Assembly: GCA_024693135.1 (NCBI GenBank)
Contig: JAILLN010000010.1
Span: 1 to 64,000, forward strand
Origin: Lachnospiraceae bacterium
Lineage (GTDB): Bacteria; Bacillota; Clostridia; Lachnospirales; Lachnospiraceae
Direction of reading: 5' to 3'
DNA: 64,000 bases
Position numbers and translations under genes: made by a program. Positions 38,207 to 43,100 of this stretch are shown in pieces. The stretch's first letter is position 1, and each line of letters starts with the position of its first letter. Below the pieces are notes generated by a model, which did no database searches, was not told the DNA's origin, and saw only the letters and a program-made list of their open reading frames with translations.

Positions 38207-38241
38207 TGCCTGCTCCTTTTCTCATCGCACCAACACTCTGT

Positions 38242-38430
38242 TTCCCCGCCGGCCTCGCTCTCCCCGGTCTCGCTATTTCCCCGCCGGCCTCGCTCTCCCC
38301 GGTCTCGCTCTCCCCGGTCTCGCTCTCCAGCCTCTCTGTTCCCCGCCGGCCTCGTCTCCCGGGTCTCTTTCTCTCCGGTCTCTTTCTCCGGCCTCTCTGT
38401 TCCCCGCCGGCCTCTCCCCCTCCCCGGCGT
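38242..38430. repeat. C/T-rich degenerate repeat tract
   Basis: Anchor CCCCGCCGGCCTC at 38244, 38279, 38341 and 38402, separated by repeated CTCCCCGGTCTCG-like segments; last two units ~61 bp apart. Confidence 0.7.
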
Positions 38431-38450
38431 TTTTTAAGCATATGTCTTCC

Positions 38451-39284
38451 TCAGTCTGCTGTCTGTTTTTCGGTATCCACGGGTAGGACTGCCTCATACA
38501 CAAGCCTTGTGCTTTTGCGTCCAGGCTTTCGTGCAGAATAATCGCTGGTCACGCGGATCAGCTTCAATCCTGCCTTCTCCAGCTCCTTCTCCACCAGCTT
38601 CCTGGGAAAAGCCGTTTCAACATGCCGCTCCTTCTGCTTTATGTAAACCATAGACCCCATTTCATTTTCTTGATTTATGTCAACTCCGCAGTCTCCCTCA
38701 GCCATCTGATTTATGTCAACTCTATCAAACAAAGTCAGATCATAGGCATTTCTTCTCTTCCGCTTGTCATAATGATTCTCCCAGATATAGGAATGCTCTT
38801 CCCCCTCCTCTGCAAAAGTGCGGTTTCCCAGCACCTTCTCGTAATAATAAGGAGTATGCAGGTCAAAAAGAAAAACCCCTCCCGGATCCAGGTAATTATT
38901 CACCAGCCGGAATACCTTTGCCAGGTCCTTCCTTCGGGGCAGATAATTGAGGGTGTCGCAGGCCGCAAGGATGGCCCGCATGGTACCGTAAAGCTCAAAT
39001 TCCCGGATATCCTGATTCAGATAGAGGATATTTCGCCCTTCCCGTTTTTCCATGGCCCGGTCCAGCATTTCTATGGAGGAATCGATCCCCGTCATGTCAT
39101 AACCCCGGTCTGCGAGCATGTCCGTCAGTGTTCCCGTGCCGCAGCCCAGATCGCAGACGAGGCCGTCCCGGATCTGGTGCCTGCGCAGAACCTTCACGAT
39201 ATATCCTGCCCATGCCTCGTAAGGCACATCCTTCATGAAGCTGTCATATGATCCGGCCAGTGCCGTATAAATCTGCTCATCCAT
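38451..39284 (-). CDS. class I SAM-dependent methyltransferase
   Basis: MDEQIYTALAGSYDSFMKDVPYEAWAGYIVKVLRRHQIRDGLVCDLGCGTGTLTDMLADRGYDMTGIDSS; start trimmed to 39284. Confidence 0.88.
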   Translation of the reverse strand: MDEQIYTALAGSYDSFMKDVPYEAWAGYIVKVLRRHQIRDGLVCDLGCGTGTLTDMLADRGYDMTGIDSSIEMLDRAMEKREGRNILYLNQDIREFELYGTMRAILAACDTLNYLPRRKDLAKVFRLVNNYLDPGGVFLFDLHTPYYYEKVLGNRTFAEEGEEHSYIWENHYDKRKRRNAYDLTLFDRVDINQMAEGDCGVDINQENEMGSMVYIKQKERHVETAFPRKLVEKELEKAGLKLIRVTSDYSARKPGRKSTRLVYEAVLPVDTEKQTAD

Positions 39285-39440
39285 GGCACAAGTGTAGCAC
39301 AGTTGCCAAAAGAGCGCAAAAAGAGCCCCATTCCGGTATCTTCGGCACAGACTGTGTGTTGAAGGGAAAGCCCTTGCACTGACAGGAGGATCAGGAATTA
39401 TCCGTTGACTTTTTTCTTCATTCAAAATAAAATACTTGCA

Positions 39441-39466
39441 AGTATACTACTCACGAGTAGTATACT
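39441..39466. promoter_or_regulatory. perfect 12-bp-arm palindrome, candidate operator
   Basis: agtatactactc-ac-gagtagtatact; adjacent second short palindrome acttgcaagt (39434-39443). Confidence 0.6.
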
Positions 39467-39596
39467 CGCGCATAACAAATAGGTTGAGGAAAAGAAAAGT
39501 CAGTGGTCAGACATGCGGCGGAGGATGGGGCTGTATTACTGGAACTTGATGATCTATTTGCGTGATCATGTAATCCGCTTACTTTTTTTACTCCAA

Positions 39597-39645
39597 TAAA
39601 AAGCTAAGGCGGAAGCTCCGATATTACTGGACTTCCGCCTTAGCT
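39597..39645 (-). terminator. strong rho-independent terminator of the putative ncRNA
   Basis: Minus strand AGCTAAGGCGGAAG-(16 nt)-CTTCCGCCTTAGCT (perfect 14-bp stem) followed by TTTTATT. Confidence 0.9.
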
Positions 39646-40039
39646 CCTCGATAGTGCTTCTTCAGTTCCCATTGGACTGTACCTCCAACTCTGTCTCCGC
39701 AACGCTGCTCTTTACAAGATTCTATGGCCTCTTCGTCCCCATCCTCTGCTGATCGGACATCTCTCTACGGAATTTTCGCCATATTCCTGCACTGCGGAAC
39801 GCTTCTCTGCTAAGCCTTTTGCTAAACTCTGATGTTTTTTCCTGTTGACGAGTTCATCTATGATAAACTTTCGTTTTTTTCAGGATCCTATTGTTCATTC
39901 TGCTCATCTGGCGCCTAACCGGTTAAAGGCATCTGAGCTAAGCTTATGCTTTCGGTGGTCCGTACCTCCTTTCATCAGATTGGCTTTCTTGTCTTCAAAG
40001 CCTTGTTTTATCTTTCGAATCTCTCATTTCGTTGTTTCT
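39597..40039 (-). ncRNA. putative ~440-nt structured non-coding RNA
   Basis: Perfect-consensus promoter upstream, multiple internal hairpins, intrinsic terminator, no credible minus-strand ORF in the track; not recognised as tmRNA, RNase P RNA, 6S or SRP RNA by eye. Confidence 0.75.
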
Positions 40040-40045
40040 GATTGA

Positions 40046-40074
40046 ATTATATCCCCGGCCGGTCTATTTGTCAA
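40046..40074 (-). promoter_or_regulatory. perfect sigma-70/sigma-A consensus promoter
   Basis: Minus strand TTGACA (40074-40069), exact 17-nt spacer AATAGACCGGCCGGGGA, TATAAT (40051-40046). Confidence 0.9.
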
Positions 40075-40150
40075 CACATTTTATCTGAATAATTTGTTTT
40101 TGTTTAAATACAACCAAAATTGTCTGAATATTCAGACATAACGCACTGCC

Positions 40151-43100
40151 CTATTTCACCTCGACGCGGATCTTGTAGGTCCTGGAGTTGATCTTCGTCG
40201 TAAGGACAGCCTTTCCTTTGTTTCGGGCATATACTATGCCGGCTCCGTCCATGAAGGCTGTGGTGCAGCTGCTGCTGGTAAACAGCACATCCTGGTAGAT
40301 GCCCTTCGATGTGAGGCGGAGAGCCTGCCCCTGCTCGAGGGTCAGAGCATAGGTCCTTCCCTTTGCATCGGTCTTTACCAGCTTTTCTCCTCCCGTCCAT
40401 GAAGGATCCTCCACAAATACATTATAGCCATACTTCAGCGGGGAGCCCTCGGCATAGGGAGCATAGCTTCCCGTCAGTACCGTGACGCCGGGACGGGTGC
40501 CGGACAGGAGCTTCCCCTTCTCCTCATGGGCAATAGACGCATTCTGTACCTTCCACTCCGCTTTTTTTGCTTTGACCTTATAGGGAGACAGGGTTTTCTT
40601 TGATCCGGCGTTCATGTATATGCTGCCCTTGACGGCCTGCTCCACAGCCAGGGAGAACGTGATCCTGCGTCCTTTGCCATCGGTACCGGTAAGGGTCGTG
40701 ACGCCTGTGCCCATTGCCGTCAGCTTCCCGTCCTTCGATATCCTTGCCACGCCGTCCTGCCAGCCGATGACCTTCCCCTTTTCATTCTTGATCTCATTCA
40801 TGGAAAGGCTGGAGGTCCAGACCGCATTTTTAGGCGAGAACTTTTCCCTTGTCCGGATGGATGCCTGCTGAAGGGGCGCCATGACCACGATGTCCTCCAT
40901 GAACCCCTGCCGGAAGGAGTCGCTTACCGTGACCTTGCAGGAAAGCTTCTTTCCATTGGCATAGGCATAGATCACGGCCTTTCCGGCGCCTTCCGCATAG
41001 ACCCTGCCGTCCTTTACGGTGGCCACCGCCGGATTGGAGGATATCCAGACGGTCCGAAGCAGCGAGGGATCTGCGGCTTCATTTCCCTTCAGCCGGATGC
41101 TGAGTTTTTTCGAATTTCCCGTATGAAGAGCCAGTTTTTTTCTGTCCAGCTCAGCCGTACAGATATTGACGCTGACCGTGACTGCCTCGCCCCCGGTAAG
41201 AGACACCGTGCCTGTCTTTTTCGGGTTCAGGATATATCCCTTCTTCACGGAGAGCACGGAAGTCTTGCTGCTGGCCCATTCCTTTGAAGGATCCAGATAA
41301 ACCTTCTGTCCCTTGATCAGAAGGAGCCCCGACCGGTTTTTCGGGCTCAGGTAATTATCCGCTCCCGACCGGTATTCATCCGTTTCCTCATTCATAAACC
41401 TGGCCTTCAGCACCAGGCTGCGGGTCACAGGCAGGCTGCTGTTCCAGCGCTCAGACCCTGCATACCACCCCACAAAATCCGGATCTCCGGAAAAATCAGG
41501 TATCTCTGCCTTTGAAATGACCTCCCCGGAGCTGACGGTGAGGGTTTTTAGGATATCCGAGCCCCTTACGAAATCCACGCTCAGGCTGTAGCAATCGCGC
41601 CAGTCCACAAAGCCGGCACGATACTCCACCGGATCTTTATAAGAACTCTTGTATGCAATGAGGATGAAATAAGTACGGTTTCCCTTTGACGAGATCTCAT
41701 AGATCTGGCCAAAGTCATATTCCTCATCGGTCAGCCTGTAGGTAGCTTCGGTGCGTTTTTGGTCTATGTCATAAAGCGCCAGGCCAGGCATCTCATGGGA
41801 AGGCACCACCAGCATCCCGTCATAAAAAGCCACCGGATTTCCGTAACTCCACGACCTTTTATATTCATGGCTCCATCCCGCATAGGGATATGCCAGCGCA
41901 TCGCTGCCATTCCCATAATCATGGATATAATATCCCTCATATCCTTCGTAGACCCACCGGTTTCCATCCGGGATCGGCGGGCTGTTCAGATTGCTCCAGA
42001 AATATACATCATGATCCTTGGAGCTCTTATCATTATTGTATACGTCCTCCCAGTTATCCCAATATGCAAGCTCGTAATTTTCGATATGATGGCAGACAAC
42101 CCAGTCCGTGGAGGTATGGCTTTCATGCAGGGAATCACGGCTGACCATGAAGTCATGATAGTAGCAGTTCTTTCCCGTTCCGTCATCCCAGGTGCAGTCC
42201 ACAAAGTAGTACTTTCCTCCTACTTTGATCCTGTTCCAGCCATGATTCATCCTTCTGCTCAGCACAAAGTCGCAGGGGATCCCAAGCCGGTCAAGCAGGC
42301 ATTTATATGCCATGGCATAGCCGTTGCACACGCAGCTGCCGTCAACGATGGCATTGTATGCGGTATATTTTTTAAAGGTATAGTCGTACTCCACATTCAT
42401 AACCAGCCAGTTATGGATATAGAGCGCCTTCTCCTCCGAGCTCCAGCAGCTTTCCATGCCGTCCATGATCTGGCTGATCCGCTGCTCAAAAACAGAGCTT
42501 GCCTGTACTGCCACATCTTCTCCATCGCCAAATTGCTTCTTTGTAAACAATTTGATGGAGAGAAGCCGGCCTTCCTTATCTGATCCATACGCATAATATC
42601 CGTCGAGGAAAAACCATTCCGGGCGGTCGTTTATGAGCAGGGCCAGGAGGATATCGGCAGTCTGTCTGTCAAGGCCGTATTCCGATATATCCGTGCCGCT
42701 TTCCGAAAATATCTCCCCGCATTCTATGGCGGAGACAGTGCTCTTAAAAAATGCCGCCGCTTCCTTTGCCTTCTCCTCCGGAACCTGCATCTCATCCGGC
42801 GAAGGGAATCCTCCCTCCTGATAAAGGAGATGTGAGATATCGCTTATCCCTGTATTTCCCGGAAGCTTCTCTCCCGCATGCTCTTCTAAAATGGAATCCC
42901 CTGAGATGAAATCTAAAGAAACCGCCTGCTCCGGCATGATCTCTTCCAGCTCCGGGCCGGATACGGTTTCTTCTGATCCTGCGCCCGATACGGCATCCTC
43001 GGATATGTTCCGGGCCGGGATATCGGATGCCGCATCCTCGGATACGGTCTGTGCCGGAACCGGTACGGCATGAAAAGGTACATTACAGAAGAGGACTGCG

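Follow-up and report, generated by a model that had tools for sequence, protein, structure and literature searches.

The window, that is, the whole stretch of 64,000 nucleotides of Lachnospiraceae DNA that was analysed, carries on its minus strand, beside a methyltransferase gene, a unit of about 440 nt that the original prediction had described as a structured non-coding RNA with a perfect consensus promoter and a strong terminator. By scanning positions 38300-40400, we found that the promoter lies exactly where it had been placed (40074-40046, minus strand) and is the sole site with 12/12 consensus bases. The GC-rich terminator hairpin is also there, with 14/14 pairs and a U tract (39645-39598, minus strand), as are the local helices and the 14-nt repeat, whose two minus-strand copies read GGAGGTACGGACCA (39969-39956) and GGAGGTACAGTCCA (39686-39673). 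When the ~440-nt strand was folded, it proved more stable than 100/100 dinucleotide-preserving shuffles (z = -4.08), and the strength of the promoter makes an abundant RNA plausible. The features of the unit are the following:

40118-40132, minus strand: CodY-like box AATATTCAGACAATT, 2 mismatches to AATTTTCWGAAAATT, supported by enrichment over dinucleotide shuffles and over other promoters
40046-40074, minus strand: promoter TTGACA-N17-TATAAT, 12/12 consensus, kept in homologues
39598-40039, minus strand: predicted ~440-nt transcript, its start inferred from the -10 box and its extent from promoter and terminator positions and from homologues
39954-39973, minus strand: element copy 1 (CC type), GAAAGGAGGUACGGACCACC, which folds as a small hairpin and contains a full Shine-Dalgarno sequence, followed by UAA at 39946-39944
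39789-39799, minus strand: 5' arm of the core lower stem, UUCCGCAGUGC (predicted fold; helices 1 and 2 of the alignment)
39722-39782, minus strand: core, a middle stem enclosing an inner hairpin (arm search, alignment and predicted fold)
39782-39778 and 39728-39724, minus strand: core middle stem, AUGGC/GCCAU
39758-39755 and 39738-39735, minus strand: core inner hairpin, GUCC/GGAC
39696-39705, minus strand: 3' arm of the core lower stem, GCGUUGCGGA (predicted fold; helices 1 and 2 of the alignment)
39667-39686, minus strand: element copy 2, start type, GGAGGUACAGUCCAAUGGGA, with Shine-Dalgarno sequence, conserved spacer and AUG
39640-39672, minus strand: mini-ORF of 10 codons, MGTEEALSRS*, whose stop codon lies within the base of the terminator stem
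39598-39645, minus strand: intrinsic terminator, a perfect 14-bp stem AGCTAAGGCGGAAG...CTTCCGCCTTAGCT followed by TTTTT (U tract; predicted fold)

By searching the window with the covariance models of Rfam 15, including those of raiA, ROOL, GOLLD, OLE and HEARO, we found no match at gathering scores; at relaxed scores the unit gave chance-level matches only, and the homologous units of 12 loci gave no meaningful match. The claim that the unit lacks the hallmarks of tmRNA, RNase P, SRP and T-box RNAs agrees with this, as none of these families has an Rfam 15 match in the window. First, the tmRNA model (RF00023) does not match the unit, and a separate tmRNA was found in 16/16 genomes searched, that of the window's genome being on contig C54. 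Second, the 6S RNA model (RF00013) does not match it either, and separate 6S-like loci are present in 17/23 genomes of the genus, the one of the window's genome being on contig C50 and below the gathering score. Since both loci exist separately, the unit is neither of the two. Third, raiA (RF03072) has no match in the unit, nor was it detected in 16 carrier genomes in a search run without positive control. The Clostridiales-1 RNA (RF01699) matches weakly in three loci, at unrelated positions, and is not the same RNA. One of its matches, in a member of the genus (L020, 2576-2685), lies about 1 kb downstream of the RNA and reaches 31 bits for a gathering score of 48; its 3' hairpin aligns well.

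Like the unit, the raiA RNA (ModT), ROOL, GOLLD and OLE are large, structured and free-standing RNAs of Bacillota, but none of them has an Rfam match in the window or in the homologous units and, to our knowledge, repeated ribosome-binding elements are not among their features. We know of no described RNA class in which repeated ribosome-binding sites with immediate stops stand beside a covarying fold. A literature search and a keyword check of the main texts of RNA-survey papers returned no description of the RNA. Free-standing structured RNAs are a known kind, while the architecture of this one appears to be new.

To what extent the RNA is distributed was determined at three levels. Within the genus, a DNA search returned a full-length homologue with 75% identity and shorter matches in more genomes, and these related free-standing units conserve the promoter and the terminator. 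The 19-mer GAGGTANRGTCCAATGGGA occurs once per genome in 28/48 genomes of the genus, the reversed control giving 0 matches, and the unit as such is present in at least 28 of the 48 species. At these loci a terminator hairpin lies downstream, and an automatic scan placed a consensus promoter ~280-490 nt upstream in 26/28; at one of the remaining two the contig ends at the promoter position, and at the other no promoter was called. Within the order, 31/392 genomes were matched at E <=0.1 by R1, a core covariance model with 126 positions. Of these, 29 belong to the same family and represent many genera, several of the weaker matches resting mainly on the repeated element described below. Finally, a GTDB scan for GAGGTAYRGTCCAWTGGGA returned at least 119 stretches and, among the 80 named matches listed, nearly all are from Lachnospiraceae, Heliobacterium and Ruegeria being the clear exceptions. 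Carrier genera beyond that of the window include Roseburia, Pseudobutyrivibrio, Agathobacter and Mediterraneibacter. A search of 250 genomes of the family with the bare 13-mer was noisy, its reversed control also matching often, whereas the 19-mer search was clean.

The genes next to the RNA vary by clade, with the top flanking cluster common to at most 20/119 loci, and a single viral contig carries the 19-mer, which argues against an RNA of a phage or mobile element. Changing neighbours together with this single viral contig point to an independent chromosomal RNA gene. A previously uncatalogued RNA family across Lachnospiraceae, predicted to be transcribed from its own strong promoter and to end at its own terminator, is therefore well supported.

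The structural part of the original prediction depended on covariation among homologues, and the core fold is indeed backed by compensatory changes on both sides in 14/20 pairs. Across 44 matches, 41 of them distinct, standard pairs fill 95.1% of the alignment cells. When the partner columns were shifted by 1-3 positions, pairing fell to 55% or less, and 0/500 shuffles reached any of five measures. The alignment had been fitted to the model, which qualifies these figures, but an alignment-free search for the arms recovered both helices in most members. The middle stem reads, for instance, AUGGC/GCCAU, CGGGC/GCCCG, GGGCAU/AUGCCC or GGACAU/AUGUCC, and the inner stem GUCCU/AGGAC, GUCUU/AAGAC or GUCUC/GAGAC. 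Coding by the stretch beginning with AUGAUGGC inside the core was considered and rejected: several homologues interrupt the reading frame, while the helix covaries from AUGGC/GCCAU to GGGC/GCCC.

Beside the core, the RNA contains the element GGAGGUAYRGUCCA in 1-6 copies, with up to six in other genera and a spacing of ~55 nt between copies in genome G542. This element is the 14-nt repeat of the original prediction and the central feature of the family. It begins with GGAGGU, a full Shine-Dalgarno sequence, and falls into two main classes. CC-type copies fold as a small hairpin, with U or A after YRG and a UAA usually nine nt further on, and start-type copies have a start codon at canonical spacing. 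Most non-terminal copies carry CCA, CCG or another non-start triplet at that position, and within one RNA copies with a start codon can take the place of copies that lack it, and vice versa. The spacer UAYRGUCCA is more conserved than initiation alone would demand. We computed its pairing with the 16S 3' tail and obtained -17.9 kcal/mol for CC-type copies compared to -15.4 for shuffled spacers, and -14.5 compared to -13.2 kcal/mol for start-type copies, where 47% of the elements beat the shuffled mean; extended pairing with the 16S tail is thus a weakly favoured idea that we keep. As the spacer is over-conserved and non-terminal copies are mostly of the non-start kind, a contact of the RNA with a protein or with another RNA is also possible. 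Regulated mRNAs do not seem to carry the element, since further near-matches that we inspected were ordinary gene start sites or chance. Two contigs of genome G061 (L240 and L251) carry near-identical genes for a leader peptide of the Gly-Gly type (MKQVDDLKKQADIDN...DMVSGGG), and their start region GGAGGTACAGTCCTATG is close to the element.

According to the original prediction, no minus-strand ORF of the track supplied to it lies inside the unit. This holds for ORFs of at least 40 aa, but an ORF of 10 codons with a perfect Shine-Dalgarno sequence is found at 39672-39640. The structure, the promoter and terminator of its own and the lack of an Rfam family stand, from homologues and covariation, and the word "non-coding" has to be qualified: in the members inspected, a start codon and an in-frame stop follow the terminal element, itself a canonical ribosome-binding site, and elements of this kind recur along the RNA. 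With Shine-Dalgarno sequence and start codon strongly conserved, translation of the ORF is predicted.

We analyzed 97 dereplicated elements that had not been chosen for a start codon. First, NUG stands at start spacing in 26 of them, with A in 19, U in 5, G in 2 and C in 0. Second, each of the 26 NUG elements meets an in-frame stop no more than 33 nt on, a count that falls to 17 and 11 when the two other frames are read. Terminal copies show AUG or UUG at the same spacing, followed by ORFs of 2 (MG*) to 23 codons that end ahead of the terminator; since this set was mostly fetched by a pattern demanding [AT]TG, the frequency of start codons in it is no evidence. Third, the pN/pS values of the mini-ORFs were 0.33/0.24 (9 codons), 0.18/0.13 (10 codons) and 0.14/0.21 (11 codons). 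A conserved peptide was rejected, because pN is about equal to pS and the lengths range from 2 to 23 codons. These patterns suggest that starting and stopping appear to be under selection and that the peptide is free to change. Six loci (L010, L011, L012, L014, L021 and L025) have, after an element copy, an additional mini-ORF on the 5' side that is 10 codons long (e.g. MYRLVNLIIN*), and its UGA overlaps UGAAAGGAGG of the next element, as in translational coupling.

Upstream of the promoter, the RNA is linked to CodY, the global nutrient sensor. The consensus of the CodY box is AATTTTCWGAAAATT (PMC5314169). A box with at most 3 mismatches lies upstream of the -35 hexamer in 38/74 dereplicated RNA promoters, compared to 4.7 expected from dinucleotide shuffles and to 18/110 other promoters of the fetched loci (Fisher p = 6e-7, a value that overstates independence as the RNA promoters are related by descent). 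At 4 mismatches the box is found in 63/74 RNA promoters and also in 41/110 controls, so it cannot be claimed for every member. The codY gene is present in 25/25 RNA-bearing genomes searched; hence a box near the promoter, enriched in the family and with 2 mismatches in the window, goes together with codY in the genome, as in a CodY regulon. In the window, the box overlaps a palindrome, TGTCTGAATATTCAGACA, which is also terminator-like and might serve the upstream gene as a weak terminator. By its position alone, the box would fit repression as well as activation by CodY. Together, CodY sites in the promoters and ribosome-docking elements in the transcript suggest that the RNA may engage ribosomes according to nutrient supply.

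The explanation that we prefer, tentatively and at somewhat less than even confidence, is a CodY-linked RNA that would engage ribosomes in trans through start-stop cassettes. 30S or 70S ribosomes would initiate on the cassettes and terminate a few codons later; the RNA might in this way engage, hold or recycle ribosomes with no useful peptide made, its dose depending on nutrient status by way of CodY. Action in trans is favoured by the lack of a conserved neighbour gene, and could affect translation, e.g. as an initiation decoy or a ribosome tether; start-less copies might bind the anti-Shine-Dalgarno sequence or serve as hairpin spacers. In its full form, where CodY sets the level, the cassettes load and idle ribosomes and the RNA is the counterpart of hibernation proteins across Lachnospiraceae, the proposal is bolder and rather doubtful. 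The gene of the hibernation factor hpf is under CodY control in Staphylococcus aureus (PMC6256015), likewise with a CodY box upstream of a product acting on ribosomes, but here the product is an RNA and its action on ribosomes is only proposed.

The main rival, because the spacer is over-conserved and start and non-start copies interchange inside a single RNA, is a sponge in which GGAGGUAYRGUCCA binds an RNA-binding protein, the number of copies setting how much of it is sequestered, like CsrB or RsmZ for CsrA, the start codons being incidental or serving RNA stability. We consider it possible, if on the unlikely side. The variable copy number and the hairpin of CC-type copies with its U or A after YRG also fit this idea. 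On the other hand, a sponge needs neither a choice of A/U/GUG starts that leaves out CUG nor an excess of in-frame stops. Moreover, csrA, the known partner of such RNAs, is present in 39/48 genomes of the genus, but the search did not find it in 14 out of 25 carriers from other genera, almost all more than 95% complete, which rejects a CsrA sponge as a general explanation. GGA was not found in hairpin loops as in CsrA sponges: it lies in the stem of CC-type copies and is missing from the many start-type copies that read AGAGGU. CsrB, RsmY and RsmZ are also free-standing, with several short GGA-containing elements in species-variable copy number, but their element and spacing differ, and the unit has selected start codons and in-frame stops.

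It is improbable that the RNA is of the dual-function or antisense type, its G-rich elements pairing with C/U-rich mRNA sites or with a C-rich sRNA and the mini-ORF being minor. The unit is free-standing and structured, as such an RNA would be, and PMC8216469 describes RoxS, one of the C-rich sRNAs of Firmicutes, as sponged by another RNA. Against it, the 19-mer occurs once per genus genome on either strand, so that these genomes contain no long perfect complement at another site. RNAIII, SR1 and other dual-function sRNAs are likewise regulatory RNAs containing a small ORF, but here the peptide is not conserved and the ribosome-binding elements are repeated. A cis-acting leader, in which translation of the mini-ORF would control the terminator and hence the downstream gene, is very improbable: the mini-ORF does abut the terminator as in leader-peptide attenuators, but downstream genes differ by locus and at several loci converge with the RNA gene, the peptide shows neither conservation nor codon bias, and no alternative antiterminator was seen.

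The engagement of ribosomes by start-stop cassettes, as we propose it, has a likeness in the lambda bar-type minigenes. These are very short ORFs with a Shine-Dalgarno sequence, and share with the unit a strong ribosome-binding site, few codons and a stop; here, by contrast, several copies lie inside a conserved, covarying and free-standing RNA. Lachnospiraceae count among the most common bacteria of gut and rumen, and the RNA is widespread in the family. Should it act on ribosomes, this would be a new means of tuning translation to nutrition, and if it is a sponge, it would point to an RNA-binding protein not yet known.

Outside the unit, a 14-bp inverted repeat, GCGAGTATACTACTCGTGAGTAGTATACTTGC, lies between the RNA and the methyltransferase gene (39438-39469, minus strand) and could be operator-like or a weak hairpin. 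Imperfect tandem repeats with periods of 13-61 and a unit like CCGGTCTCGCTCTCC occupy 38241-38414, between the methyltransferase and Hsp33 genes.
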